Of a DNA stretch of 42,677 nucleotides, positions 3,997 to 39,569 are shown piece by piece. Source of the DNA: a virus. The translations under genes and the position numbers were made by a program. The notes under the pieces are model-generated. The model had not been told where the DNA came from. It searched no databases and worked only from the letters and a program-made list of their open reading frames with translations. Every line of letters begins with the position of its first letter. Position 1 is the stretch's first letter. Location of the stretch: IMG/VR virus record IMGVR_UViG_3300043446_001004, positions 1 to 42,677 of that record; one strand, written 5' to 3'.

Positions 3997-5865
3997 TTAC
4001 TGCAAAGTCACAGTCTGATCAGTGAATCGCAAGTACTTGATGTTCTTCAGCTGATCAGTGCCGTCAACGCCCGAGTGTGAGACTGTAGCAGAACTGGCGT
4101 TGCCTGAGATGGAGTACTGTGACTTGGGTCCCGAGTACACCACGGTGTTGGTGCCCAGCCCACCATCCACTTTGCAAGTGCTGGCACAACCGCTGGCGAT
4201 GGTGTCGTTGCCTGCAAAAGTTCGGATGTTCTTGCTACCGTTGCGATTGCTGATGGTGATGTCCTTCTTGAACTGTGTGCGGAGATCAATTGCCACGGGC
4301 ACGTTGACCAACATGGTCACTGGCCCACCCAGGTTGTCGGGCACTGTGGCTTTAGCTAAGAAGTTCAGTTTACCACTGCTGTTGCGATAGGCAATAAACT
4401 TAGGGCTTTCCTGATTCTCCACACGCCAGGTGATTGGTGCCACTGGTGTACTCAGCATCTGCGAACGCATGTATGTGAGCACTTGTGTGCCCATGTTCTG
4501 GAACTCGTCGTGCATGGCCAAATGAAACTGGCCAGTACCGTCATTCACCATGATGTAATTGCCATGTAGACTACGATTGCGACAACCAGCAGTTTTACAG
4601 TAGGCGTCAGTCTGAGCCATCAGGTAGGTTTTGATGCCACTATTGTCTAGATCCACTAGACGCATGTCATAGTCATATCCAGTATTTTCGTTGAACGGCA
4701 TATTGCCTGCGGTTTTGTCTACAAACGATCCAGAGCCATTGTTGATCAGGATCTGCAACATGGCCTTCCAACCTGGCCAGATCTCACTGCCTATAATCAT
4801 GTCATCCTTGCCGTCCTGATTGACGTCATCTGTCCAGACACGGCTCTGGTGTGTTTTGTTGTTACTGCTGTCCCAAAAGCTGGTAAACGAATTGTATTCA
4901 GGCTTGTTGTTAAAGAACGGTGCAGGTAGCTCAGTTGCTGGTGCAGAAAATGCACTGGTGTTGTTGCCACTGTAGATCAGTCCACGCATGGCTGTCATGC
5001 TAGCGTCCCATTGTTTGCCCAAGTCCCAGCCAGCGTCAGCCACAACAATATCAGACTTGCCATTGCCAAGAAAATCTCCCAGAGCGGCTGATGATCCTTC
5101 CAGATCTATACCATTTACTGTCAATCGTGTAAAGTCAAAATTCAATCCGTTGTATGTGTACACACCCACAAATCCACGACCCGCAGTGTTGTAACTACTG
5201 ATCATGATGGCATTTTTGCCCTGGTACTTGACCAGTTTACCATCGTGTGCCAGCACTGCATCAGTACCAGACGCCAACATGGGCACACCCCATTGTGCTA
5301 CTAGACCCACTTTATCAAAAGCACCATTGCGGTTGCTGATGTATGCCACACTACTCTTGGCTTTCATAGGGCTTTCGTTGTAAGCGGCTAGGAAGATATC
5401 GTCTTTGCCGTCACCATTAAAGTCACCAATTACCACACTGCCAGCGCCGTTGGTCAAAGGGCTGGGTACCATTTCACTGGTAGCCACACGCAAAGTACCA
5501 TCAGACTTCTGAGCCAGGATGGCCATATTGACCTGGTAAACGTCAGGGTTATTAGCGGCATCTTTATTCCATGCCCAGCCAGTTAGTACTATACCTTCTG
5601 CTTGATCTGTTCCAAAACGACCCACACCATACATGTCAATCAGTGCAGTGTTATTGCCGTTCATTGACTGATAAATGTTAGGATCATAGGTACCAATAGT
5701 GGTCAACTTGGAAGTGATATCAACACTAGAGTAATCACTAATGCTGGTGGCATCTGCCGCTTGGACCATGGTGGATCCAGTGCCAGCGGCACCACCGCCT
5801 CCTCCGCCCCCACAGGCAGTGAGTAGCACTAGGCTCAACAGGCTCAAACTAGTTTTTAGTTGCAT
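3997..5865 (-). CDS. Secreted FG-GAP repeat lipoprotein with RTX-like C-terminus
   Basis: A 622-residue protein. Residues 1-18 form a lipoprotein signal peptide with lipobox LLTAC (Cys18), followed by seven Gly. FG-GAP/VCBS-type calcium repeats are visible: DFNGDGKDDI (about 148-157), DFLGNGKSDI (about 264-273) and DDVNQDGKDDM (about 346-356). The C-terminus (about 560-622) has NDTIASG, DGGLGTNTVVYSG and LKNIKYLRFTD, typical of RTX/haemolysin-type ends. It should be lipid-anchored in the host envelope. A consensus early promoter at 5898-5926 implies expression soon after infection, which would suit altering the cell surface or excluding other phages (inference). The poly-Gly lipobox style suggests host origin. 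Confidence 0.85.
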   Translation of the reverse strand: MQLKTSLSLLSLVLLTACGGGGGGGAAGTGSTMVQAADATSISDYSSVDITSKLTTIGTYDPNIYQSMNGNNTALIDMYGVGRFGTDQAEGIVLTGWAWNKDAANNPDVYQVNMAILAQKSDGTLRVATSEMVPSPLTNGAGSVVIGDFNGDGKDDIFLAAYNESPMKAKSSVAYISNRNGAFDKVGLVAQWGVPMLASGTDAVLAHDGKLVKYQGKNAIMISSYNTAGRGFVGVYTYNGLNFDFTRLTVNGIDLEGSSAALGDFLGNGKSDIVVADAGWDLGKQWDASMTAMRGLIYSGNNTSAFSAPATELPAPFFNNKPEYNSFTSFWDSSNNKTHQSRVWTDDVNQDGKDDMIIGSEIWPGWKAMLQILINNGSGSFVDKTAGNMPFNENTGYDYDMRLVDLDNSGIKTYLMAQTDAYCKTAGCRNRSLHGNYIMVNDGTGQFHLAMHDEFQNMGTQVLTYMRSQMLSTPVAPITWRVENQESPKFIAYRNSSGKLNFLAKATVPDNLGGPVTMLVNVPVAIDLRTQFKKDITISNRNGSKNIRTFAGNDTIASGCASTCKVDGGLGTNTVVYSGPKSQYSISGNASSATVSHSGVDGTDQLKNIKYLRFTDQTVTLQ

Positions 5866-5940: not shown

Positions 5941-6690
5941 ATGAATTTTATCAAAGATGAGGCCACTGGGCTGATTGGGCACAGAGAAGTAGCGAGACAC
6001 GAGTCGTTCAGCGGGTCTGACGATGAAGAGACTTACAAAGAGTCGTTAAAAACCCAGCCAGCTGACTGGATCTATCGTAATACTAAAGTAACATACAAGC
6101 GCAACGAGTACGGGCATCGCACCATTCCCATGTCCAACATCAAGCAGGACGGATACTTACTGACCACTGGTTGTAGTTTTACTGAAGGTATTGGATTGCC
6201 AGTAGAGGATGTCTGGCCGCATGTGTTAAGTCAACGCATGGGCAATATTCCCTACTACAATCTGGGGCTGGCCAGTTCAGGTCCTGATTTGGCCATGTAT
6301 AATCTGTGTCGCTTCCTCACTGCGTGTCCATACGCTCCTGGGTACATTGTGCTGTTTGTGCCCCCGCAAGATCGAATGTTTTCACTTGGTTATGGATTTG
6401 GTGACCGTAGAGTAAGGGCATCAGGCCCGTGGGACGAGAACGAGGGCGGACTAGGTAAGTTGTTCCAATTCAACGTCAAGTATTATACATTTGACACCAA
6501 CTTGTTAAAAGTTGATGCCACTTGGAAAGTCCTAAAACACGTGATGCCCAAAACCAAATTTGTCGCATTCACATTCCACGATGTACCAGAAACGCATAAC
6601 GATCTGGATCGCGCTCGTGATCTCATGCATCGTGGGCCACGAACCAATCAGGTGTATGCCGACTTTGCGTTGGGATTGATTAACAGTTAA
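5941..6690 (+). CDS. SGNH hydrolase-like protein, GCS variant
   Basis: A 249-residue protein with TTGCSFTEG (GCS at 77-79) as block I, LGLASSGPD near residue 118 as the Gly/Asn block, and a C-terminal DLMH matching the DxxH catalytic dyad of SGNH enzymes. The N-terminal 70 residues are an extension without recognised motif. ATG 5941 was chosen because the late promoter octamer lies just upstream; an in-frame ATG at 5899 would be inside the opposite early promoter. The stop overlaps the ClpS gene stop on the other strand, sharing TTAA. A late-expressed esterase or acyl transferase acting on glycan or lipid is possible. Confidence 0.7.
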   Translation: MNFIKDEATGLIGHREVARHESFSGSDDEETYKESLKTQPADWIYRNTKVTYKRNEYGHRTIPMSNIKQDGYLLTTGCSFTEGIGLPVEDVWPHVLSQRMGNIPYYNLGLASSGPDLAMYNLCRFLTACPYAPGYIVLFVPPQDRMFSLGYGFGDRRVRASGPWDENEGGLGKLFQFNVKYYTFDTNLLKVDATWKVLKHVMPKTKFVAFTFHDVPETHNDLDRARDLMHRGPRTNQVYADFALGLINS

Positions 6691-6992
6691 GCCACTTCCA
6701 CTTGAGCTTGCAATGGATGCTCGTATGCAGATGCGTACTGCATGATAGTGGTCTGTTTTGTTTCGGCAATGTCTTTAGTATATGTACCAGCTATGCCCTT
6801 GCCTTGCTCGTGAACCTGCAGAGTCACATGTGTTGCTTGTTCTATTGTGAGATTGCATACTTTGAGTAGAACTGCAATCACAAACTCCATGGGAGTGAAG
6901 TCGTCGTTCATCAACACCAGTTTGTACATGTCTGGTGGTTTGACTGTGTCCCGTTGTTCACCCAGTACTCGATCAATTACGTTATCTTCCAT
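6687..6992 (-). CDS. clpS: ClpS-family Clp protease adaptor
   Basis: A 101-residue protein matching ClpS along its core: KPPDMYKLVLMNDDFTPMEF, VHEQGKGIAGTYT and DIAETK. The N-degron pocket residues N29, D30, D31 and H61 are present. ClpS delivers proteins with destabilising N-termini to ClpAP and inhibits other ClpA substrates. A phage copy could redirect host proteolysis (inference). I start at ATG 6992 because the core begins soon after; a GTG at 7022 would overlap the upstream radical SAM gene. It follows that gene (stop 6994) by one base and is presumably co-transcribed with it. Confidence 0.9.
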   Translation of the reverse strand: MEDNVIDRVLGEQRDTVKPPDMYKLVLMNDDFTPMEFVIAVLLKVCNLTIEQATHVTLQVHEQGKGIAGTYTKDIAETKQTTIMQYASAYEHPLQAQVEVA

Positions 6993-6993
6993 G

Positions 6994-8232
6994 TCAGTTG
7001 CACTTTTTACAAAATTTTCCACATATGGCCAACTTGTTGTCGGTCTCTAGATCCTGATACACCAGTTGATTTAACACACCGCTGTCCAGGATTTCACCAA
7101 GACTATAACGCCTTAGACTGAATTTGTCAACACCAATCTCGTGGATTTTGTTCAGCATTTCGGCATCCACAGTGTCCAACAACTGGCGCGGTTCACCATT
7201 TATGATCTGTTGCTGTGTTACTAGGCCTTTGGTCATTCTGTTACCAGTAAAACGACCACTGATGAAACAACAGGGCATCACATACAAGTCATAGGTGATA
7301 AAGATAAACAGAACTTTTTTATTTCGTCGTTCAATGTCGTCCCAACTGATACAATGTACGTCTTGTGTCTTGGCATTACGCCACATGTCAGTTTGATATA
7401 TTTCGTAAGGTGCCCCTTCAGGAAAACGAAACTGTTCTCGTCCCGGGCGATTGAATGCAAGTGGTTGTGATTTGGGAACTTCTGGTATCACAGGTTCAGC
7501 CAAGTTCAACTTGGTCCAATTGTCAAGTAACTGATCCCAGTTGTGTGCTGGATATATCTGATTTATCAGTGGACGATATTGTTCTGTATTCAGTTTGGTA
7601 AGAGTGTGAGTGTGCTGATCATTTCGATCTTGTACCGCAATACGGGCTGGTCCATAACTTTCTTTTACGTGCAGAGTGTTCACCCCCACGTCACGAGCCC
7701 AGGCAATCACATTGGGCAAATCATGAATATTCTGATCAAACGCCAGGAATTGTAGCGTCAGTTGCCACAACCCGCTGACATTTTTTCGAAATGCACGAAT
7801 ATTTCGATCCACTGCTTCCCATTTGACACCTGCTCTGTACCAGTTGTTGACATCACGATAGCCGTCAATACCAAACGTCATTGTGACACCAGCGGCTGCC
7901 AGACGTTCATAACTTTCCACACTGCCAATGCCACCATTGGTACTCACTCGCACCTGACATCCCGGTTGTGTACGCACAATGTATTCGGCAATGTCTGCTA
8001 TCTCGGGATTGGTCATGGGATCACCAATATTGCCGCAGAAGTTGATGGCCTTGATACCAGTAGTGTACTTGAGAGCTCTTTTAAATTCTCTTAATGTAGT
8101 ATATCCCTGATCCACATCAGCCATTTGTAATGCAGTGGGATCGCGGCGCAGACACACAGGACAAGTGGCCTGGCAGGCACTGCTAATTTCCCAATCAATA
8201 CTGTGGAGGTCGTCTTTGGTTACTAGGGGCAT
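6994..8232 (-). CDS. Radical SAM protein with SPASM-like C-terminus
   Basis: A 412-residue protein. CQATCPVC (C20, C24, C27) binds the radical SAM cluster, followed by the strand FCGNIGDPM in place of GGE. The C-terminal part has VMPCCFISGR near residue 318 and CGKFCKKC at the very end, consistent with one or more auxiliary clusters of SPASM/twitch type. Such enzymes often modify peptides or carry out dehydrogenation. It stands downstream of three tRNA genes and upstream of clpS. A host-type promoter at 8541-8569 may read through the tRNAs into it. The substrate is unknown. Confidence 0.85.
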   Translation of the reverse strand: MPLVTKDDLHSIDWEISSACQATCPVCLRRDPTALQMADVDQGYTTLREFKRALKYTTGIKAINFCGNIGDPMTNPEIADIAEYIVRTQPGCQVRVSTNGGIGSVESYERLAAAGVTMTFGIDGYRDVNNWYRAGVKWEAVDRNIRAFRKNVSGLWQLTLQFLAFDQNIHDLPNVIAWARDVGVNTLHVKESYGPARIAVQDRNDQHTHTLTKLNTEQYRPLINQIYPAHNWDQLLDNWTKLNLAEPVIPEVPKSQPLAFNRPGREQFRFPEGAPYEIYQTDMWRNAKTQDVHCISWDDIERRNKKVLFIFITYDLYVMPCCFISGRFTGNRMTKGLVTQQQIINGEPRQLLDTVDAEMLNKIHEIGVDKFSLRRYSLGEILDSGVLNQLVYQDLETDNKLAICGKFCKKCN

Positions 8233-8239
8233 AAAAGAA

Positions 8240-8315
<76 letters not shown>

Positions 8316-8338
8316 AATCTTTTATTTACCCAAACTGA

Positions 8339-8422
8339 TGGTACGGGTGGCCGGACTCGAACCGGCATGCCTTTCGACGGGAGATTTTAAGTCTCCTGAG
8401 TATACCATTTCTCCACACCCGC
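8339..8422 (-). tRNA. tRNA-Leu (anticodon UAA)
   Basis: 84 nt with a long variable arm. Anticodon stem GGAGA/TCTCC encloses CTTAAAA. T-arm GCCGGTTCGAGTCCGGC is intact, CCA is encoded, and the first acceptor pair is G-U. Confidence 0.93.
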
Positions 8423-8428
8423 ATTTGT

Positions 8429-8503
8429 TGGTGGGCTGGGAGGGACTTGAACCCCCACTCGGTCGATTATGAGTCGACTGTTTCACCTTTAAACTACCAG
8501 CCC
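8429..8503 (-). tRNA. tRNA with CAU anticodon (Met or Ile2)
   Basis: 75 nt, acceptor GGGCTGG/CCAGCCC, anticodon stem GTCGA/TCGAC around CTCATAA, T-arm with GTTCAAGTC, CCA encoded. The loop fits elongator Met or lysidine-modified Ile(CAU); sequence alone does not settle it. The paired first acceptor position makes initiator Met unlikely. Confidence 0.9.
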
Positions 8504-8891: not shown

Positions 8892-9098
8892 TCACTCTTT
8901 ACGACCCCAACCAATCCTGTTCCACACACGCTCGTGAGCCCAGAATAAAAATATCTTGGTCATGATTTCCGTCAGTGCAATGCCACTGGCCAATAATGCT
9001 TGGCCAGTGATTAGCCAGCTGATCAAAAACGTGTCCACTGTTCCTGTCACACGCCAGCTGACTGCTTTGGCTAGACTACGTACAGGAGTGTCACTCAA
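8892..9098 (-). CDS. DUF2061 family small membrane protein
   Basis: A 68-residue protein with RSLAKAVSWRVTGTVDTF at its start and KIFLFWAHERVWNRIGWG at its end, the pattern of DUF2061. Two hydrophobic segments (about 20-40 and 44-57) suggest two membrane passes. I chose the TTG at 9098, which overlaps the stop of the kinase-nucleotidyltransferase gene; an ATG far upstream would lie wholly within that gene. It is the last gene of the 11-gene operon. Its close coupling to a kinase suggests a membrane partner for that pathway, but the family has no established function. Confidence 0.75.
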   Translation of the reverse strand: MSDTPVRSLAKAVSWRVTGTVDTFLISWLITGQALLASGIALTEIMTKIFLFWAHERVWNRIGWGRKE

Positions 9099-9882
9099 GG
9101 CCCATAGCCTTTCTAATCTTGGTAGCTGAAATATCAGTAATAGTGGGATCAAACTCTTCTTTTTCAATCTTGTAGCCCACGTCACGTCCGTAAGTGATAT
9201 GTACGATATTGGGAACAACTTGAATCTCGTAACGGCCCTGATACATGGGGTCTAGGTCACGACGAATATAGTATTCCACTTCACTGATGGCAAAAGGATT
9301 GCTACCGTTCCAGCCCTGACAATCGCGGATCTGTATTACCACTTGCCCAGTCTTTTCTAGAGCACGTTCAAACAACGCACGATGGCCCTGATGCCAAGGT
9401 TGCCAACGACCCAACATCTGTACAGTTTCCTTCTTCCAGTCAAAAACTGGTCGACGAATTCCTTTCTGAATACAGTCGGAGATGATAGCAGACCATTTCT
9501 CAGCTTCTTTTTCGTTGATACGGAAATCGTACTGTACAGGTTTTACAAACATCTTGTTGGTGTCATCATAACGACCCTGCTCAATTGTATCCAACCAGAT
9601 AGTCCAGTCAGCTTCAAAGTTGTCGCGCATGACTTCCAGTGGAGCAACAAAGTCGCAAATGGCGTAGTCAGTACCGCAACTGTCTGATAGTTCGCGCATA
9701 CGATTGCTCTGGCGCACACGGCCAGCTTCACTAAAATCCCAGTCGTCCCATTTTTTGCGAATCTCATCCGCATTGAACCAGGACACTGAACGTCCAGAGT
9801 TCTGAAGTTGATCTAGTAGATACTTGGCCAGTGTGGTTTTGCCAGCGCCTGGCAGGCCCATAATTAAAATACGTGTTGTCAT
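9091..9882 (-). CDS. Fusion of APS-kinase-like P-loop kinase and HxGH nucleotidyltransferase
   Basis: A 263-residue fusion. Residues 1-145 are a P-loop kinase with GLPGAGKTT (9-17) and WFNADEIRK (35-43), resembling CysC adenylylsulfate kinase. Residues 155-263 are a nucleotidyltransferase with GRWQPWHQGH (HQGH at 164-167), NPFAISE and the ISATKIR signature (251-257), closest in layout to NMN adenylyltransferases. Possible roles are activation of a small alcohol or sulfate, or NAD-type salvage in NadR-like fashion with the domains in reversed order. It overlaps the SGNH gene upstream by 4 bp (ATGA). Confidence 0.85.
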   Translation of the reverse strand: MTTRILIMGLPGAGKTTLAKYLLDQLQNSGRSVSWFNADEIRKKWDDWDFSEAGRVRQSNRMRELSDSCGTDYAICDFVAPLEVMRDNFEADWTIWLDTIEQGRYDDTNKMFVKPVQYDFRINEKEAEKWSAIISDCIQKGIRRPVFDWKKETVQMLGRWQPWHQGHRALFERALEKTGQVVIQIRDCQGWNGSNPFAISEVEYYIRRDLDPMYQGRYEIQVVPNIVHITYGRDVGYKIEKEEFDPTITDISATKIRKAMGLE

Positions 9883-10559
9883 GTCAAATCCCTTTTAATG
9901 TGTTCGTAAATTGTTTCAGCAACCAACTGATGCCCTTGTTCTAAAAAATGACCCCCAGGGCCGCTGGGCAAATCCTTGCACCATTGCAACATGGTGCTTC
10001 CCAGTTGGATATAATTATTTGTATCTATATACCGACGATCTGCACCTTCGAAACTTAGACTAAATGTATTTACAAATCTGTACGCCTGTTTAGTAAATTT
10101 AAAGTGATTCTGCAGGGCAATTATCTGAGCTCGTGTGGCCTGAAGTGCCAGTGCATCGTCATAATGTGTCTTATAGAATTCTCGGACGCCAGAGAATTTG
10201 GAGGCAGAGGCCATTACTGCCGATACTGGTAGCTCTTTGCCATTGTATGCCCAGTCCTGTCTATTATGACCAGTCCAGGCACAAATGATCATATTGTACT
10301 TTTTAGTCAGCGATTCCGAAACAGCTAATCTGAATATGCGTCCGTTACTGCCACCTGTTAAACTCATGTTGACCACTTCATGTCCAGTCATCTGTCCAAT
10401 AAGACTGGGCCAGGAGTACGCACTGGGCGTCAATGGTTGAACTTTGGTGGTTTGTGGTACTTTCCAAAACAATCCATGATCATCAATTTGTTCTGCTGAT
10501 GGCTGATCTGCCAACTCAGCGCCAAACGAAAAACTGTCACCAAGTACCAGAATTGTCAT
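9879..10559 (-). CDS. SGNH/GDSL hydrolase
   Basis: A 226-residue protein with the canonical LGDSFSFG block I (Ser9), MSLTGGSNGRI near 64-75 supplying the Gly/Asn oxyanion blocks, and GGHFLEQGHQL near the C-terminus for the catalytic His. There is no signal peptide. Start ATG 10559 overlaps the upstream stop as ATGA. It sits between a 2OG-Fe oxygenase and a kinase-nucleotidyltransferase, so it probably acts on the same modified small molecule or polymer (inference). Unlike the two plus-strand relatives in this window it keeps GDS. Confidence 0.8.
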   Translation of the reverse strand: MTILVLGDSFSFGAELADQPSAEQIDDHGLFWKVPQTTKVQPLTPSAYSWPSLIGQMTGHEVVNMSLTGGSNGRIFRLAVSESLTKKYNMIICAWTGHNRQDWAYNGKELPVSAVMASASKFSGVREFYKTHYDDALALQATRAQIIALQNHFKFTKQAYRFVNTFSLSFEGADRRYIDTNNYIQLGSTMLQWCKDLPSGPGGHFLEQGHQLVAETIYEHIKRDLT

Positions 10560-11116
10560 ACACGCTTGAATCGGAGATAGACGCTGTGGCGATGTACGCC
10601 TGGTGGTACTGGGGTAATCAGCCCGTGCATTACACCACCAGGATTGGGTAACATGTAACCAAAATTGTTTCTATAGGGCAACTGGTACGTGATATGCTCG
10701 TCTGCGCTGTAGAATGTGGTGCCCAGATGGTTGATGTCTTCTTTAGTAATGTAGATCTGTATTGCGTGATCATACGCATCCACGATGTCTTTATGTGGGG
10801 TAATAGAGTAGCCAGGGAGGTCTTCCCACAACTGTAAGTCGTCGAACTCAACCCGATTGCCCACGTGATCTGCCACATAGTTCAACATGTTGTCACTGCT
10901 GACGTATGCTCGCACTAGATCCAGTGTAGCATCTGAACCCACATACACCTCACGTCCGCCGCGGTGTGCAAACTCGGACGGTGCGGCCCATTCGGGAGAC
11001 CGTGCTACATAAGAGTCAAACAGAACCTGAAGATTGGTTACCAGTTCAGGCGTAAAATAATCTTCCACCAGGTATACTGTTTCACCATCAGGGTTTGTTA
11101 TTTTGGTCGTGTTCAT
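10556..11116 (-). CDS. 2OG-Fe(II) oxygenase
   Basis: A 186-residue protein with a double-stranded beta-helix signature: HKD (H108, D110) and H164 as iron ligands, and R176 before HSVYLRF for 2-oxoglutarate. I start at ATG 11116, which overlaps the carbamoyltransferase stop (ATGA), rather than the GTG at 11122. The family hydroxylates or oxidises amino acids, nucleobases or small molecules. Its position directly after a carbamoyltransferase suggests it makes a hydroxyl group that could then be carbamoylated, but this is inference. Confidence 0.8.
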   Translation of the reverse strand: MNTTKITNPDGETVYLVEDYFTPELVTNLQVLFDSYVARSPEWAAPSEFAHRGGREVYVGSDATLDLVRAYVSSDNMLNYVADHVGNRVEFDDLQLWEDLPGYSITPHKDIVDAYDHAIQIYITKEDINHLGTTFYSADEHITYQLPYRNNFGYMLPNPGGVMHGLITPVPPGVHRHSVYLRFKRV

Positions 11117-12600
11117 GAGCACACCTTGACACCATACAGTGCTTCGAAACGATCTGCGTCAGCACGATCATTCACCATGGGTTCGCCTCTGATGTTTAAG
11201 CTGGTGTTGAGTAACATGGGACACCCACTCACTTCGTACCATTTTTCAAGCAACTGTCGTATTCCTGATCCATCTTTTGGCACTGTCTGTACACGACTAG
11301 TCCCGTCGTGATGAATGATAGCAGGAAATAGGTCAGGATGCCTACAGCGAGCGACTGACTGCATATACCTGCTGTCACTCCAGCCACGAGGCATATCAAA
11401 GTAAGTGTCAGCCAGTTCCTCCAGAATAACGGGCGCAAAAGGTCTGAATTGTTGTCTACGTTTGATTGCATTTACTTTTCCTTTAATCTCTTCTCCTCTT
11501 GGATCCGCCAAGAGCGAACGGTTACCCAGGGCACGAGGGCCAAATTCGGAATATCCGGAAGCCACTCCCACAATAGACTGAATAAGTAGCTCATTAATAA
11601 TGTCAGCAACAGGATAAGGGCCAGGAATATTATACCCGAGATAAGCACTACGCCAGTTAATTCTACGTCCATGAACCAGAGCGGCAGCGCCAAGGCTGCT
11701 ACCAGCATCACCAGGATTAGGCATAATCCAGATATTTTCAAAGTACTCTCCTAAGAATCGGTTGGCTAGGCAGTTGAGTGCCACACCACCCTGATACACC
11801 AGGTTGCCCGTTGTGTCTAGATCACGAGCTATTGTCATGACCTCTCGTATCAGTTTCTCAGCAATCACTTGTGCGTCATAAGCCACGTTGTACTTATCTT
11901 CACTCAGCGTGGAGATTTCAGGTAATCCGATATGCAGATTCTCTTTAAACTTCAAGTCGCCTGCCAACAGATTGCTTTCAATGTCAGCAGTGCGATATTC
12001 GTTGGGTGTACCATATGCGGCCATGCCCATGAGAATGTATTCTTCGTCCATGGGCATCAGTCCCACATGGTCAGTGAATGCACTGTACATGAGACCAATA
12101 CTATGTGGGTAACGACGATTCCAGATCTTCTTGTAGTGTGCTTGACCGTCCACATAATGTGCTGACCAAATACTAATAGTATCCCATTCGCCAATGGCAT
12201 CAATTACCACAACTGTAGCTGAATCGAACGGACTTGTTTGGAATCCTGCGGCAGCATGACTCATGTGGTGGTTCTGATACACCACTGGTATCTTGGACCA
12301 GCTGGCATCACCCAACATGCTGGCCAGGCGTTTGTTTAGATTGCTGGCTTCAAAATTGAACAACTGACGCCATTGCCCAGTATACAGTTGGCGTGTTTTC
12401 TTGACCCAGGGAGTTTCATAATAACTGATGACGTCAGGTTTGCCGTGCTGGGCGATTTCCTTGATCAAGTTGGGATGCAGGTCAGCATCATGTTTGTTTT
12501 TGCTAAATCGTTCGCTATGTGATGCAAATAAAATATCACTACCATCTAGTAGTGTTGCTGCCGCATCATGGAATCCTGAGCTTATGCCTAATATTTTCAT
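11113..12600 (-). CDS. NodU/CmcH-type O-carbamoyltransferase
   Basis: A 495-residue protein matching the carbamoyltransferase family: MKILGISSGFHDAAATLL at the N-terminus, QNHHMSHAAAGF near residue 109 with the metal/ATP-binding His residues, GGVALNC near 270, and the YrdC-like C-terminal signature EFGPRALGNRSLLADPR followed by KRRQQFRPFAP. The family transfers carbamoyl from carbamoyl phosphate through a carbamoyl-adenylate to a hydroxyl. Known acceptors are Nod factors, antibiotics and, in some phages, hydroxymethylated pyrimidines. Full length; both ends overlap neighbours by 4 bp. The acceptor could be a nucleobase, a glycan or a tRNA. Confidence 0.9.
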   Translation of the reverse strand: MKILGISSGFHDAAATLLDGSDILFASHSERFSKNKHDADLHPNLIKEIAQHGKPDVISYYETPWVKKTRQLYTGQWRQLFNFEASNLNKRLASMLGDASWSKIPVVYQNHHMSHAAAGFQTSPFDSATVVVIDAIGEWDTISIWSAHYVDGQAHYKKIWNRRYPHSIGLMYSAFTDHVGLMPMDEEYILMGMAAYGTPNEYRTADIESNLLAGDLKFKENLHIGLPEISTLSEDKYNVAYDAQVIAEKLIREVMTIARDLDTTGNLVYQGGVALNCLANRFLGEYFENIWIMPNPGDAGSSLGAAALVHGRRINWRSAYLGYNIPGPYPVADIINELLIQSIVGVASGYSEFGPRALGNRSLLADPRGEEIKGKVNAIKRRQQFRPFAPVILEELADTYFDMPRGWSDSRYMQSVARCRHPDLFPAIIHHDGTSRVQTVPKDGSGIRQLLEKWYEVSGCPMLLNTSLNIRGEPMVNDRADADRFEALYGVKVCS

Positions 12601-12881
12601 TTCAATCCGTTTTTCAATACATCAATAGTTATGCGATCACGAAAGATGTTGAAACGCATTTCAAAATTGTATGTGGCTTTGGCAACGTCGATATCATTGC
12701 CCCAACGCAACTGCTTGAGTAAATGATCAGCCCAACGTGCCATGTCATCCTTCATGATAGTCAGCTCAACTGGTTCAGGAAAGTGCTGATTGGCAGGGCT
12801 TAATTTCTGATACTGGCTCCATTGATCCAGGAGACTTTCTGCTAATTGTTTAACTAGGTCTGGATCATGGTCAGTGGTCAC
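12597..12881 (-). CDS. Hypothetical protein, 94 residues
   Basis: The start is a GTG at 12881 overlapping the preceding TGA (GTGA) with GGAGG about 11 nt upstream; an upstream ATG at 12974 would overlap the UvsY-like gene by nearly 100 bp. The product begins MTTDHDPDLVKQ, is helical and mildly charged, and contains the helix DDMARWADHLLKQL. No motif is recognised. Both junctions overlap by 4 bp, so it is translated as part of the operon between the UvsY-like protein and the carbamoyltransferase. Confidence 0.7.
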   Translation of the reverse strand: MTTDHDPDLVKQLAESLLDQWSQYQKLSPANQHFPEPVELTIMKDDMARWADHLLKQLRWGNDIDVAKATYNFEMRFNIFRDRITIDVLKNGLK

Positions 12882-13330
12882 AATGTCACATCCTCCATGC
12901 CCGCTGTGCGTAGACGAACTATGTGTCCCATTTGCCACTGTTTGGCTTCCAGTCCCTTCATCACACCCAACCACTTGTTGCGTAGTAGAGCCACTTCGTT
13001 AATCAGTGTTTCATAATCGATAACTTCTGCCTCACCGTCCACATACTTTTCAGCATCACGGCTAGTTAATGCACGAGCATATCCTTCCAGATACTTTTGA
13101 AAGTGTTTGCGTCTTATCTTGCGTAACTGAATGTTCATGTAGTTCAGCACTGCTTCTATTTCCTGTAGCTGATTAAAGCGATGTTCAGTAATACCAGGAA
13201 TATTACTGATAGCCTTCTCCACGTTACCAGTGATGCGGCACTCTGTTTTTGCCGCACCCAGTTCTGCTTCATAGTAAGCAATAAAGTCTGGGAGTAAGCC
13301 CAGGTCTGCGACAACTTTGTTATACCACAT
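12878..13330 (-). CDS. uvsY: UvsY-like recombination mediator
   Basis: A 150-residue protein, close to T4 UvsY in length (137). The C-terminal half matches UvsY in pattern: a Lys/Arg-rich helix leading to YLEGYARALTSRDA, then DGEAEVIDY, an aromatic/Leu helix NKWLGVMKGLEAKQW and GHIVRLRTAG, parallel to UvsY's final helices ending IQDMRA. UvsY loads UvsX onto gp32-coated ssDNA; both partners are encoded at 15749 and 16870. It overlaps the radical SAM gene upstream by 11 bp. The assignment rests on pattern memory and the presence of partners. Confidence 0.6.
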   Translation of the reverse strand: MWYNKVVADLGLLPDFIAYYEAELGAAKTECRITGNVEKAISNIPGITEHRFNQLQEIEAVLNYMNIQLRKIRRKHFQKYLEGYARALTSRDAEKYVDGEAEVIDYETLINEVALLRNKWLGVMKGLEAKQWQMGHIVRLRTAGMEDVTL

Positions 13331-14558
13331 ATTCAGTTAACCATGTAAATGTTTTACGCCAGTCGAGATTGCGACGACGATCTAGTTCGTCCAAGTATAC
13401 TATTAATTTATGTATTTCGCGATCATTACGAACAGATTGCTGGATCTGTTTCATAATGCCCATCATATATCGTTTGGCTTCCACCTGCTGATGTGTGAGT
13501 CCTGGCATGGCTTTTAGGATACGCACAAAGTCATCGCGCCAGAAGTCCCCACCAAAAGCATCAGGATTTAGATGTGGGCGGTCATACACTGTCATAAAAT
13601 GATGCCCGATCTCGCGTTTGGTGCGAAATTGATTGACGTACTCAATCATTTCAGGCATGGTTTTGATAGTAAGACTGGTTATGGTCTGATTGATGTTCAA
13701 TCTGATCCAACCCTGCTCGACCAGATATTCAAAGTTTTTGCGCCACAATTCCAGATCCAGGCCGTGTCTGACATATTCCTGTTCTGGTCCCCAACAGTCG
13801 ATGCTGGCTGTAAGATCAAATCGGGCAATACGACCCGTGTCCACCAGCTGTTTAATTCTGGCTATGTGACTGCGTAGACGATCATGACTGATCATGAGAT
13901 TGCTGACCACATTAAACTCTAGATCGGGATTGGATCGTGTTTCTAGGAATTCCAGACAAATGTCAAACTGTGCCTGATAGAAAGGTTCTCCACCCAGCAC
14001 ATGCAGGCGGCGCACGGTCATGTAATTGATGTCCATCCATTCCCAGAACTGTTCGGTCAGCTGGGCATGATCGGGGTGTTTAACTGATCTGTTGTCAATT
14101 ATCATTCCGTCACGCTCAAAGCGACCGTGGCGCAAATTTTCCTGTTGTATCTTGCTACTGTATCCGTCCCAGCAATAGACACAACTGAGATTGCAAACGT
14201 TGTCGAAGTACACCTCCACAATACGTGGTGTCACATTCGTGGCAGTGGGATCAGTGTCCAGCTCAGGCGGCGCTAGATCGGGCACCTGCATCTGCAACAT
14301 GCGATCACTAAACCCACCTGCTTCTTCAATATTGCGACAATACTCACAGCCACCTGATGGCCATTCGCCAGCCAGCATCAGTTCACGATCATTTATTTTC
14401 CTGGGTGTATTGTGGAAATCCATGAACGTGTCTGGCTGCAACAGCGATGAGAACACTCTATGACACGAGTTGGTCCTTCCGTTGTATAACAGTATTGTGC
14501 TCCAGGTCCACTTTAACTGACAGGCAGTAGCAGACTTGATAGGAAAGACTTTAGGCAT
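13320..14558 (-). CDS. Radical SAM protein with N-terminal Cys-rich domain
   Basis: A 412-residue protein. C122, C126 and C129 (CNLSCVYC) form the radical SAM motif, with VLGGEPFY following (GGE). Ahead of it, C13, C32 and the pair C71/C74 resemble an auxiliary cluster placed N-terminally, the same order as in the gene at 1-850. The two are probably paralogues. The start codon abuts the stop of the 78-residue gene. It lies in the operon with another radical SAM locus and the carbamoyltransferase. The substrate is unknown. Confidence 0.85.
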   Translation of the reverse strand: MPKVFPIKSATACQLKWTWSTILLYNGRTNSCHRVFSSLLQPDTFMDFHNTPRKINDRELMLAGEWPSGGCEYCRNIEEAGGFSDRMLQMQVPDLAPPELDTDPTATNVTPRIVEVYFDNVCNLSCVYCWDGYSSKIQQENLRHGRFERDGMIIDNRSVKHPDHAQLTEQFWEWMDINYMTVRRLHVLGGEPFYQAQFDICLEFLETRSNPDLEFNVVSNLMISHDRLRSHIARIKQLVDTGRIARFDLTASIDCWGPEQEYVRHGLDLELWRKNFEYLVEQGWIRLNINQTITSLTIKTMPEMIEYVNQFRTKREIGHHFMTVYDRPHLNPDAFGGDFWRDDFVRILKAMPGLTHQQVEAKRYMMGIMKQIQQSVRNDREIHKLIVYLDELDRRRNLDWRKTFTWLTEYVV

Positions 14559-14794
14559 CAGTCCTCATAGCCGTAATCTTCTTCAGGGTCGTCGTCCTCT
14601 ACACCAGACGCATACTCTTTGTATGCTCTACCCAGTGCTGAATCAGTACCGCAAAATTCCTTCAGTTCCAGGTCGCCCACTAGATCGACTAGAATGCTGA
14701 CAATGTTGTCGGCAGCTTCCTGTCGGTCTTTAGCTGGAATATATTGCTTTAGGATAGTGTATGTTTCGCTTAAAACGTCAATATCAATACTCAT
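14558..14794 (-). CDS. Hypothetical acidic protein, 78 residues
   Basis: Begins MSIDIDVLSETYTILKQY and ends in the strongly acidic tail DDDPEEDYGYED. The core is helical. The start overlaps the upstream stop by 4 bp and its stop overlaps the next start, so it is tightly coupled between two radical SAM loci. Acidic C-termini are common in phage proteins that contact DNA-binding partners, but there is no motif to support a function. Confidence 0.75.
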   Translation of the reverse strand: MSIDIDVLSETYTILKQYIPAKDRQEAADNIVSILVDLVGDLELKEFCGTDSALGRAYKEYASGVEDDDPEEDYGYED

Positions 14795-15105
14795 GTCGAT
14801 TCTTTCAAATGTTTTGCTGCCATCAGATCATCAGTGCATCCAGTACACCGAGTCTTCGTACAGACTGTTTGTGTGGGCAACAGTTCCCACCCAGTTTCCA
14901 GATTACCCAACTGATCATTGCAACACTCACCACCGTATATATCAAAGTCTGGACCAATGTATAGACGATTGTGACCAGCATCACAAAGCCAACCTTGCCA
15001 ACGGTCCAGTTCCTGATTGTGTAGCCAATTGGCTTCCATACGAAACTTTCGATTGTCGTCAGTTGTCACTAGACAATTATAGTACTGGTGATTGTCAAAT
15101 TGCAA
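14791..15105 (-). CDS. SPASM-like C-terminal half of a split radical SAM protein
   Basis: A 104-codon frame starting at TTG 15105, with no convincing ribosome site. Its second half has LYIGPDFDIYGGECC, then CTKTRCTGCTDD, the Cys pattern of an auxiliary-cluster (SPASM/twitch) region. On its own it lacks the radical SAM barrel. It overlaps the 3' end of the 15095-15709 gene by 11 bp in the +1 frame, and joining the two would give one enzyme of about 300 residues. Either the halves are separate subunits, a +1 frameshift joins them, or one base is missing from the sequence. Confidence 0.7.
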   Translation of the reverse strand: MQFDNHQYYNCLVTTDDNRKFRMEANWLHNQELDRWQGWLCDAGHNRLYIGPDFDIYGGECCNDQLGNLETGWELLPTQTVCTKTRCTGCTDDLMAAKHLKEST

Positions 15106-15709
15106 GATTTAGTTTGCCTTTTAAGATTGGAACAGTCCTGGTCTGTTTGCTGTAATCTATGCTATTTACCATATTGCTGATGCCATGACCATTTAAAATT
15201 TCCACGTAATGTGGAATACGATGCCTGTTCCAGTGCTCGTCCATGATGTTCACGTGCATGTGGCGGCCTGCTGGCAGATTTTGTTTCAGCTGGATCATGG
15301 TGTCAAAGAATCGCTGTTCGTCCATGTGTTCCGAATGTGTACTGAACGATATGTTGTCTACCACCTGAAACATCCTCAAGTAGTAGTCATAGGTGGCACT
15401 GCCGTTGGTAGTGGCCAGTATCTGGTTAATGTCCGAGTAGTTGTCACGAAGCCATTCCACAAATGGTAGGAAATGTTTGTTGGCTGTAACTTCCCCACCA
15501 GTAAAACTGATTTTGTATAGTCCACGCCCTTGTGTTTTGTCGTGTATATCAATCCAGTTGGCTTGTAACGTTTCCAGATCCTTGTGCGGGCTGGAGTTGT
15601 CATGTACATCAGCGCCACAGTACATACAGTCATAGTTACACCGACGTCCCAGATTCCATGTGATGGAAAAGTGTTTGGGTATTGGATCTATTCTGATTAC
15701 TTTCGACAT
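15095..15709 (-). CDS. Radical SAM protein (N-terminal half of split gene)
   Basis: 204 residues with CNYDCMYC (C24, C28, C31) and FTGGEVTANK (GGE), a clear radical SAM core. It stops at ATT TGA C after LKGKLNLAI, where a full-length family member would continue into the Cys-rich C-terminal region found in the next ORF. Reading past the stop in the +1 frame gives DNHQYYNCLV. It is the first gene of the 11-gene operon and follows a terminator-like hairpin at 15721-15743. Confidence 0.85.
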   Translation of the reverse strand: MSKVIRIDPIPKHFSITWNLGRRCNYDCMYCGADVHDNSSPHKDLETLQANWIDIHDKTQGRGLYKISFTGGEVTANKHFLPFVEWLRDNYSDINQILATTNGSATYDYYLRMFQVVDNISFSTHSEHMDEQRFFDTMIQLKQNLPAGRHMHVNIMDEHWNRHRIPHYVEILNGHGISNMVNSIDYSKQTRTVPILKGKLNLAI

Positions 15710-15748: not shown

Positions 15749-16822
15749 TTACTCCTCAACAGTTGCTGGTGCTTCGACTGCTGGTGTGGGTGAGCCCAGA
15801 TGCGGATTGGCTGTCATATCGGCCATGATTGTATCTAAACAACCATCGTCGTTGCGTTCCCAACCCTTACGGAACTTCTTGATAACTTCACCATCAGCAG
15901 TTGTATAGGTAAGACTGTTGCCTTCCTTTTTCAACATGCCTTTGGCTTCCACTAGATCCACAAGCCCTGAATAAGGGTTCATGCCGGTCTCATATGGAAT
16001 CTTGACCTGAACACTTTCAAAAGGTTTGGCATATCGTGTCTTCATGATTTTACATGCGGCACGGATACCGTTCACTTCTGTAGTTTTGTTGCCGTCTTCG
16101 TCTTCCTTGAGTTTCAATTTACGCATTGCTACTACAATTGAACTGGCATAGATAAAGCCCTGACCACCTGAGATTTTGTCATCAGGATCGAACATGTCCT
16201 GACTTGCATAGGTGTGGTTGGTAGCAACCAGGCCCAAGTTCAAATCACCAAACATGTTTACACAGTTACGAACCAGTGCTGTCAGTGCTTTGGGTTTACG
16301 GCCCATGTCACCTTTCATGTCACCAGCTTCAAACTGATTTACGTCAGTGGGCGTCAACAACATACCCAGCGAATCCAATACAAACAACACCTTGGGACGA
16401 TCGTTCTCTGGCAATGTTTTGTATTCTTTCACAAACTCACTGATCATTTTAGCCACGTCATCGATCATGGCCATGTTCAGCTTGAGCAGTTTGTCTTCAC
16501 TAGTGTCCACGTTTAGAGCGTGTAACCACTTTTCATCTAGAGCGTTTTCTGTGTCGATTAGGATCACATAGATGCCCTGTGCTTGTGCGTTCTTGACCAA
16601 GTTGCCTGAACAGATAAAACTTTTACCTGCACCAGACTCACCAGCAAACACAGTCACTTTGCCCAGCGGAATACCGCGATTGAAGTCACCACTGATCAGG
16701 TAGTTCAAGGCATAATTGCTTGTACTAACCCAATCAGTAGGATCGTTGAAACCAAAACTCAAGCCGTCAATGCTTTTCGTCAAGGTCTTTCTAAATTTAC
16801 TTACGTCGAATGGTTTTCCCAT
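15749..16822 (-). CDS. uvsX: UvsX RecA-like recombinase
   Basis: A 357-residue protein with Walker A GESGAGKS (61-68), the ILIDTENALDEKW strand containing the catalytic Glu region, Walker B LFVLDSLGML and the DNA-binding loop region around DDKISGGQGFIYASS. It fits T4 UvsX (about 390 residues) more closely than bacterial RecA. It forms presynaptic filaments for recombination-dependent replication and repair with UvsY and gp32. It is separated from gp32 by a 7-bp GC stem and followed by a hairpin. The Shine-Dalgarno CAGGAGC precedes ATG 16822. Confidence 0.93.
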   Translation of the reverse strand: MGKPFDVSKFRKTLTKSIDGLSFGFNDPTDWVSTSNYALNYLISGDFNRGIPLGKVTVFAGESGAGKSFICSGNLVKNAQAQGIYVILIDTENALDEKWLHALNVDTSEDKLLKLNMAMIDDVAKMISEFVKEYKTLPENDRPKVLFVLDSLGMLLTPTDVNQFEAGDMKGDMGRKPKALTALVRNCVNMFGDLNLGLVATNHTYASQDMFDPDDKISGGQGFIYASSIVVAMRKLKLKEDEDGNKTTEVNGIRAACKIMKTRYAKPFESVQVKIPYETGMNPYSGLVDLVEAKGMLKKEGNSLTYTTADGEVIKKFRKGWERNDDGCLDTIMADMTANPHLGSPTPAVEAPATVEE

Positions 16823-37753: not shown

Positions 37754-38181
37754 CAAGTGCCGGTGCATTGGTCTATTGCACCAGTACTCAACGATATCTG
37801 TTTTTACTACGCAACGGTTCCAAATATGCAGGCATGTGGGGACTAGTGGGTGGTAAACTTCAACGAAACGAATCAGTTATTGACGGTCTGCATCGAGAAA
37901 TCCAAGAAGAGCTAGGGCATGTTGAAATGTCTCGTGTTATTCCGTTGGAAAAATACGTCAGTGACAATGACAAATTTGTCTATCACACATTCCTGGCTAT
38001 AGTAGAGCAGGAGTTTGTGCCCACACTCAACGAAGAGCATCGTGGCTATTGCTGGTGTTCATTAAATGACATTCCCAAGCCACAGCATCCTGGGCTCTGG
38101 AAAACTTTCAATCTGGACAGCGTGGCTGAAAAATTAGCCACTGTGGAAAATACACTCAGCTCAGTTCAGGCCGTGCTGTAA
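37735..38181 (+). CDS. Nudix hydrolase
   Basis: A 148-residue protein with the Nudix box at residues 40-62: G(x5)E(x7)REIQEELG, all invariant positions present. It starts at GTG 37735 inside the end of gp15 with a strong GAGGGAGG site. Nudix enzymes hydrolyse nucleoside diphosphates linked to another group, such as modified dNTPs, nucleotide sugars or NAD. Given the nearby glycosyltransferase and the HxGH nucleotidyltransferase elsewhere, a nucleotide-sugar or NAD-type substrate is possible. Its end overlaps the convergent glycosyltransferase gene by 21 bp. Confidence 0.9.
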   Translation: MVSSSLTSAGALVYCTSTQRYLFLLRNGSKYAGMWGLVGGKLQRNESVIDGLHREIQEELGHVEMSRVIPLEKYVSDNDKFVYHTFLAIVEQEFVPTLNEEHRGYCWCSLNDIPKPQHPGLWKTFNLDSVAEKLATVENTLSSVQAVL

Positions 38182-38841
38182 ACAATATTCAGTAAGAATA
38201 CGTTCCTTGTGCCATTCGCCGCCTTGTGGCGTGTCGGCAAATTCCTGGAAACAGGGGGTGCCTAGCGTATAGTGTAACAGTTTAGCATCAGGATTGGCGC
38301 CGTATTCATCGGGCAACCAGTTCCATTCCTTAGGCAATTCGCCAATGCGTTCATCATCAATCCAAGTGAAACGATGTAACTCTGCACCAGTGGCTTTTTC
38401 GATAAATGCTGGCGTCAGTTTACGATTGGGGTAACTGTTACAGTTCCACAAAATCACACTGGACCAGTTTTTACGTGGGTAGTCTTCATTTTTAGCACCC
38501 AAGTATTTGACAGGCATACGAGTTTTGTAATCGTGTTTGACCACCATGACATCTTTATCCAGCTGTCTCATTTCCCACAATTTGGTAATATCATCACGCA
38601 CAATCATGTCACCATCCATAAAGATAGCCCAGCCTTCATACTTCATCAAATGCGGTACTAGGAAACGACTGTAGATAAAATGATTGCTGCCGTCAGTATG
38701 AGTCTCTGTGTAGTCTTTGAACAAGTTTAGTGCCAGCGGAATAATTTGCACTGGCTGACTTGCATGACGAATAATACTGTTGGCACACGTATGGAATGCG
38801 ATTGCTTCACGTGGATCGTAACCGATAAAGACTGGTATCAT
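38161..38841 (-). CDS. GT-A type glycosyltransferase
   Basis: A 226-residue protein. FIGYDPREAIAFHTCANSI is a nucleotide-sugar binding start, and IFMDGDMIV has the metal-binding DxD (D76, D78) after a conserved strand; KHDYKTRMP and HYTLGTPCF resemble GT8-like families. It transfers a sugar from a nucleotide donor. The start overlaps the upstream oxygenase stop (ATGA). In a block with an oxygenase and methyltransferases next to a tail fibre gene, it may decorate virion or host glycans (inference). Confidence 0.82.
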   Translation of the reverse strand: MIPVFIGYDPREAIAFHTCANSIIRHASQPVQIIPLALNLFKDYTETHTDGSNHFIYSRFLVPHLMKYEGWAIFMDGDMIVRDDITKLWEMRQLDKDVMVVKHDYKTRMPVKYLGAKNEDYPRKNWSSVILWNCNSYPNRKLTPAFIEKATGAELHRFTWIDDERIGELPKEWNWLPDEYGANPDAKLLHYTLGTPCFQEFADTPQGGEWHKERILTEYCLQHGLN

Positions 38842-39569
38842 TTTAACTCCGGCACATAAACATCAAATAACAACAAGTTGCGTTCAATACCTGGCTCTAC
38901 TGGTTCAACACCATGCCAGCTTTTGTCGTTCTTAAAGAATGCAAACATGCTATTGGGCAAGTAGGGCATGGTGGCAAAGCGAGTAAAGTCTTTGTATCTA
39001 TAGTGTGGACCACCTGGGCACGTCATACCCTCACGTTTGGGTGCATACATACTGGTACCCAGGTCAGGCCGACTGCTATCAGGTGCTAGATAAAACAACA
39101 CAGTGATCACTTTACTCTTGCTGTCGGTGTGTGGGCCCAGCTCGTAGCCAGTGTAATCACGCACATACAGACTTTCAAATTTAGTGTTAACACGAGTGCC
39201 CAGTCTGCGTTCTACAAAAGTGGAAAACTTGTTTAAGAACACATCTCTAAGCTCTGGTGTAATTAATTCAGTAGCAGCCTGCATCCAGGGTGTTCTAATC
39301 GCCTCAGGCAGTGGGTCAATAGTTTTTTCGTTTACTGGCAACACAATACGATTGTCTTCAGGATTGTCTTTGGGATTGCCTCCAGTAACAATCACCCGCC
39401 CCATGCTAGTCAACGTGGCTAGGCTTTCTTTCTGTGGCTGGTTTGCCACCAACTGATTGTAGAACTCCTGTGGCAGTGCATCTTTGATGTAGATGTAGGG
39501 ATAGGGTTCCTCAATCAGCTCAGTGTCTTGAACTTTTTTAGCTAGATAATTAACTACGGCGGAACACAT
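38838..39569 (-). CDS. 2OG-Fe(II) oxygenase (prolyl-hydroxylase-like)
   Basis: A 243-residue protein with HTD (H147, D149), distal H219 (SWHGVEPV) and R230 for 2-oxoglutarate, matching the prolyl 4-hydroxylase-type superfamily. YELGPHTDSKSKVITVLFYL and FFKNDKSWHG are the family signatures. The start at 39569 has GGAG nearby and overlaps the upstream gene by 20 bp. It could hydroxylate a virion protein, a glycan or a lipid. It is distinct from the smaller oxygenase at 10556. Confidence 0.85.
   Translation of the reverse strand: MCSAVVNYLAKKVQDTELIEEPYPYIYIKDALPQEFYNQLVANQPQKESLATLTSMGRVIVTGGNPKDNPEDNRIVLPVNEKTIDPLPEAIRTPWMQAATELITPELRDVFLNKFSTFVERRLGTRVNTKFESLYVRDYTGYELGPHTDSKSKVITVLFYLAPDSSRPDLGTSMYAPKREGMTCPGGPHYRYKDFTRFATMPYLPNSMFAFFKNDKSWHGVEPVEPGIERNLLLFDVYVPELK

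Follow-up and report, generated by a model that had tools for sequence, protein, structure and literature searches.

An overlapping gene string in a jumbo-phage fragment joins a recombination core to an inserted carbamoyltransferase cassette

We analyzed a 42,677-bp virus fragment that makes up the entire record IMGVR_UViG_3300043446_001004 (the window), in which an ORF check found eleven open reading frames (ORFs) at positions 8892-15709, all on the minus strand. The string is a mosaic of a jumbo-phage recombination core and an inserted cassette, and we favor, with some reserve, the reading that this cassette makes a hydroxylated, O-carbamoylated sugar-like or small-molecule block, probably for a surface glycan. 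The original prediction, made from the letters of the DNA, had proposed eleven overlapping genes that are translated together and serve a single pathway. All eleven ORFs are present, and with two starts corrected there is an overlap of 1-11 bp at every one of the ten junctions (11, 4, 1, 11, 4, 4, 10, 4, 4, and 8 bp). The start of g125 moves to GTG 12881, giving a GTGA junction and a 4-bp overlap with the UvsY gene, and that of the DUF2061 gene moves to TTG 9098, giving the junction TTGAGTGA and an 8-bp overlap with the kinase-nucleotidyltransferase gene (KNT). Because the genes overlap, their translation is probably coupled, as proposed. The single pathway did not survive, however: synteny in relatives led us to reject one obligatory eleven-gene system, since the core exists without the rest and the carbamoyltransferase (CT) cassette usually lies elsewhere.

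Family searches bore out the radical S-adenosylmethionine (SAM), UvsY, CT, KNT, and DUF2061 assignments of the prediction; the oxygenase and SGNH assignments, weak by sequence, are upheld by motif and predicted fold in the first case and by probable kinship to DUF6071 in the second. The ratio of nonsynonymous to synonymous substitution rates (dN/dS) is 0.00-0.07 for rSAM_A, g104, g78, rSAM_B, and UvsY, the genes common to the window and a diverged contig, and conserved homologues were found for the remaining genes; this purifying selection on the testable genes, with the homologues of the others, makes the string more than a product of chance. The window's TerL protein is ∼55% identical to those of Pseudomonas phages PA5oct and Paride, ∼51% identical to that of Phosso, and 67-73% identical to those of most of the large recruited IMG/VR contigs (177-374 kb). 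The window is therefore a fragment from an uncultured jumbo myovirus lineage. Its own DNA-level similarity to isolates is confined to tRNA matches.

Recombination core and radical SAM inserts

The core consists of the UvsX/RecA-like recombinase (15749-16822; PF00154), which lies just upstream of the string, likewise on the minus strand, and in the same order in relatives; g78 (14558-14794), a small protein with an acidic tail encoded between UvsX and UvsY; the UvsY-like recombination mediator (12878-13330; phrog_231, E 2.5e-15); and g125 (12597-12881), 94 aa long from its corrected start, with homologues after UvsY in relatives. In all 19 related jumbo-phage records bearing UvsY, g78 adjoins either UvsY or a radical SAM gene in the slot between them. 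Vibrio phage 2.275 and CBB show the order gp32-UvsX-UvsY, and in Phosso and PA5oct g78 sits between UvsX and UvsY; neither a radical SAM gene nor a CT gene was found in the recombination block of these four phages. Myoviruses of the PA5oct/Phosso/CBB type share the TerL-gp32-UvsX-(g78)-UvsY order with the window lineage and, unlike the window, have no CT in the block and no twitch-domain (N_Twi) radical SAM over the family cut-off. UvsX-g78-UvsY(-g125) is a core recombination block that also exists without inserts.

Both radical SAM loci of the string, one of them split as predicted, are accessory inserts in this block. The gene rSAM_B (13320-14558) occupies the slot between g78 and UvsY (the Y slot) and encodes a twitch-domain protein scoring 220.8 bits against NF033640, above the family cut-off of 170 bits, below which rSAM_A and rSAM_C fall. 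Cysteines 13, 32, 71, 74, 122, 126, and 129 of rSAM_B are kept in 97-100% of Y-slot sequences, and CxxxCxxC in all of them; no match to rSAM_B was found in isolate phages. A radical SAM gene fills the slot in 9 of the 19 UvsY-bearing records and in only one of 11 records recruited via CT or KNT, and it precedes UvsY in 69 of 69 contigs recruited with rSAM_B, a biased sample. Y-slot sequences form nearly one clade, apart from the X-slot and array clades (2 changes versus 28.6 in shuffles). Judged by this near-single clade and the patchy occupancy, the slot is old but optional. A radical SAM gene nested among core recombination genes poses a testable question.

The split gene lies between UvsX and g78. 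Its N-terminal part, rSAM_A (15095-15709; 204 aa), carries CNYDCMYC and matches PF04055 (E 2e-7), with a dN/dS of 0.058 against contig L162; its Cys-rich C-terminal part, g104 (14791-15105; 104 aa; dN/dS 0.062), follows in the +1 frame across the overlap TTGCAATTTGA. The two correspond to two parts of single ORFs in the more distant relatives L087 and L105. A sequencing error is disfavored, because L162, ∼93% identical over this region, is split likewise and purifying selection acts on each half. Expression of g104 could possibly proceed by a coupled restart at TTG or by +1 frameshifting at ATT TGA C, a junction that we take to resemble the release factor 2 (RF2) frameshift site.

Twitch radical SAM matches number 5-16 per contig in 25 related contigs (G001-G025), a range that is no random sample of the lineage, these contigs having been gathered in part with radical SAM and CT as queries. 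Four cultured jumbo relatives showed no match that exceeds the family cut-off, and an expansion on this scale is unusual. One assembly considered as a cellular counterpart, L275 (G026), was rejected: this gammaproteobacterial metagenome-assembled genome carries jumbo-phage terminase genes, its contig abounds in radical SAM genes, as the phage arrays do, and the assembly is probably contaminated by phage.

The CT cassette and its Streptomyces counterparts

CT (11113-12600) is an O-carbamoyltransferase of the NodU/TobZ superfamily. It matches PF02543 and PF16861 (Carbam_trans_N and Carbam_trans_C, above cut-off at 146 and 154 bits), and alignments show that it keeps the superfamily motifs HHxxH, EFGPRALG, and NTSxN. 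Its closest solved structures are the antibiotic O-carbamoyltransferases NovN, GdmN, and TobZ, which have the same two domains and motifs; compared with them, the window CT is shorter and stands in a phage context. The adjacent OX (10556-11122) is a 2-oxoglutarate (2OG)/Fe(II) oxygenase whose HxD..H iron triad is invariant, and whose Arg is near-invariant, in the family alignment. Its AlphaFold model (pLDDT, the predicted local distance difference test score, 88) has the predicted double-stranded beta-helix of 2OG/Fe(II) enzymes, with PolD as best PDB match and prolyl-4-hydroxylases also retrieved by Foldseek; it had no Pfam match at E 0.01, and hence none to the Tet_JBP domain of TET/JBP base oxygenases. 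The SGNH hydrolase (9879-10559) reaches 21 bits (E 2.9e-4) against PF19547, under the cut-off of 27 bits; with a profile of its family, DUF6071 proteins from Streptomyces score as high as 114 bits.

Relatives of CT occur at 114 viral places, mostly away from UvsY and downstream of tandem radical SAM genes, together with SGNH, KNT, and DUF2061. The enzyme mix recurs in other giant phages, and the CT tree indicates that CT came to lie beside UvsY at least twice. Genes near relatives' CT include a DegT aminotransferase, an NAD (nicotinamide adenine dinucleotide)-epimerase, and a member of the amidinotransferase family like StrB1/SxtG; the CT genes of the isolate phages HTVC008M and S-SCSM2R adjoin nucleotide-sugar genes. 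The cassette proteins A1 (379 aa) and A3 (361 aa) gave no usable PDB match, and a glycosyltransferase role for A1, suspected from motifs, could not be confirmed.

The idea of a gene set that hydroxylates and then carbamoylates gains from Streptomyces, where the CT-OX-SGNH trio, adjacent here, recurs. DUF6071 is rare among Streptomycetaceae (5 of 299 genomes), yet the regions around it, inspected in six positive genomes, hold a CT of 532-556 bits within ∼5 kb in four (L279, L372, L373, and L376), a proportion that is no random sample, since two of these four loci were found via their CT. Three of the four (L279, L372, and L373) include genes for a 2OG oxygenase and a radical SAM enzyme as well, so that four enzyme classes, radical SAM, CT, SGNH (DUF6071), and 2OG oxygenase, stand in one locus, the same classes as in the window. 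Their radical SAM genes gave no match with the radical SAM profiles of the window; L373 adds an aminotransferase and a phosphatase; and in L279 and L372 an ORF with a P-loop motif, matching no Pfam family, borders CT. The jumbo-phage CTs and these actinobacterial CTs form one clade, to be read with caution given its long branches, apart from the NodU-like bacterial, cyanophage, and 5-hydroxymethylcytosine (5hmC) enzymes. We tentatively suggest that an undescribed CT-2OG oxygenase-SGNH(DUF6071)-radical SAM pathway yields a carbamoylated product both in Streptomyces and in a lineage of uncultured jumbo phages with 5-16 twitch radical SAMs each, and that on at least two occasions phages placed it beside the recombination genes, although we would hold this as a possibility only. 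A search of one literature library found no paper on DUF6071. Sugar and metabolite genes are known in phages but are seldom explained, and a small enzyme set common to jumbo phages and Streptomyces offers a cultivable system in which the product could be sought; it is the part most worth following.

Cyanophages provide a described precedent. Sugar/lipopolysaccharide (LPS) and auxiliary gene clusters lie near tRNAs in their genomes (Sullivan et al. 2010, PMC3037559; P-SSM2, S-SSM7), and among cyanophage genes are one for a carbamoyltransferase and several for oxygenases of the 2OG-Fe(II) type. They too are large T4-like phages with sugar clusters near tRNAs, and three tRNAs stand just past DUF2061 in the window. 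However, the cyanophage CT is only ∼30% identical to that of the window and is not joined to the UvsX-UvsY block, and cyanophage S-SSM5 gave no twitch radical SAM match.

Proposed product and destination

A metabolic cassette inserted, in overlapping order, into and behind UvsX-g78-UvsY-g125 could work as follows. CT, OX, and SGNH would most likely build the hydroxylated, O-carbamoylated molecule, perhaps helped by the radical SAM enzymes and KNT-DUF2061. An acceptor would be modified by radical SAM and 2OG oxygenase chemistry; CT, using ATP, would move the carbamoyl group of carbamoyl phosphate onto a hydroxyl; SGNH would remove or move an acyl group; KNT would phosphorylate the product and activate it with a nucleotidyl group; and the decoration would probably end up on a glycan displayed at the surface of the virion or of the infected cell. 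The DegT, NAD-epimerase, and nucleotide-sugar neighbors of other phage CTs, and the GT8, 2OG oxygenase, and FkbM/MptE-like genes at 38-42 kb of the window, are consistent with this scheme. As substrate, a glycan, one of the candidates proposed originally, or a small molecule appears to fit best, the glycan destination in particular being our conjecture.

Several points weigh against this scheme. Glycosyltransferase, flippase, and nucleotide-sugar genes are absent from the eleven genes, and the rest of the pathway is out of sight because the window is only a 42.7-kb fragment. The way in which the Streptomyces loci were found lessens their weight. Next to the actinobacterial CT of L278 lies a lanthipeptide synthetase, which makes a peptide substrate possible. 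Finally, CT is present in only 3 of 80 KNT loci, KNT could serve NAD or another pathway, and the nucleotidyltransferase half of its structure is poorly predicted.

KNT (9091-9882; phrog_10255, E 6e-49) combines a domain of adenosine 5′-phosphosulfate (APS)-kinase fold with an HxGH/ISATKIR nucleotidyltransferase, and is followed by a small membrane protein, DUF2061 (8892-9098; 68 aa from its corrected start; PF09834, 73 bits). KNT has at least 598 viral relatives, and in other phages DUF2061 follows it directly, often with the same 8-bp overlap; the two are a separate, widespread pair usually found without CT. That they are unrelated to the cassette and merely lie downstream, acting for example in nucleotide or NAD metabolism, has real weight, though we lean the other way: the many phages with the pair and no CT, and the likeness of the C-terminal half of KNT to nicotinamide mononucleotide (NMN) adenylyltransferases, speak for it, whereas KNT directly follows CT in 15 of 80 CT loci. 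This alternative bears on the pair alone and leaves room for a carbamoylated molecule made by the other genes. Synthesis of 3′-phosphoadenosine 5′-phosphosulfate (PAPS) by KNT was rejected: the kinase half has the APS-kinase fold, but the other half is nearer to NMN adenylyltransferases by sequence and was modeled poorly.

Rather than a surface glycan, the cassette might yield a diffusible metabolite, peptide-derived or antibiotic-like, which we consider unlikely. Among cellular CT loci, the closest come from actinobacteria and resemble natural-product clusters, and radical SAM enzymes are frequent in natural-product pathways; on the other hand, the window shows no obvious precursor peptide or exporter, and DegT and epimerase genes lie near the phage arrays. 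Adjoining the CT of L278 (962-9464) are a RamC/LanC-like lanthipeptide synthetase and an ABC transporter.

Less probable still is that all eleven genes form one system after all, the radical SAM enzymes modifying g78, UvsY, or some other recombination protein, or else coupling recombination to the pathway. The Y-slot enzyme does form nearly one clade with kept cysteines, stays by UvsY, and shares 11 bp with the UvsY gene in 40 of 69 cases, but g78-UvsY stands without it in 10 of the 19 related genomes, close paralogues within its clade are found in arrays distant from UvsY, and the cultured relatives do without any twitch radical SAM over the cut-off.

Very improbable, finally, is hypermodification of phage DNA, in which CT would carbamoylate 5hmC, with OX perhaps making the hydroxyl; the DNA base among the substrates first proposed is thus disfavored, because no hydroxymethylase was found, relatives keep Asn177 in thymidylate synthase, and CT is without the residues of the 5hmC enzyme. 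A phage CT with this activity has been characterized (eLife 70021, PMC8670742) and belongs to the same superfamily, and 14 of 80 CT contigs have, close to the cassette, a gene named by eye as deoxycytidine monophosphate (dCMP)-deaminase-like. But the window CT is 27% identical to that enzyme, distant from it in the tree, and has Gly359 and Arg361 at what are probably the positions of TobZ G421/R423, which are Cys and Thr in the 5hmC enzyme. No thymidylate synthase homologue was found in the window, itself an incomplete genome, and no dCMP hydroxymethylase in the window or among the relatives' thymidylate synthases; the synthases of 10 of 25 large related contigs look ordinary, since all keep Asn177 and not the Asp177 of the dCMP hydroxymethylase type, and no synthase was found in nine contigs that carry CT, several of them 317-345 kb long. 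The dCMP-deaminase-like gene lies at 9961-10407 in L060 and recurs in 13 other CT contigs; some genomes have a canonical thymidylate synthase at a distance of a few kb.

Elsewhere in the window, directly downstream of the cassette, a ClpS adaptor, a third radical SAM gene (6994-8232), and the three tRNA genes occupy 6687-8503, and a 622-aa FG-GAP repeat protein is encoded at 3997-5865. A further glycan-type cluster at 38161-41685 encodes the GT8 glycosyltransferase, a 2OG-FeII_Oxy_3-like protein, and a large MptE-like/methyltransferase/FkbM protein.

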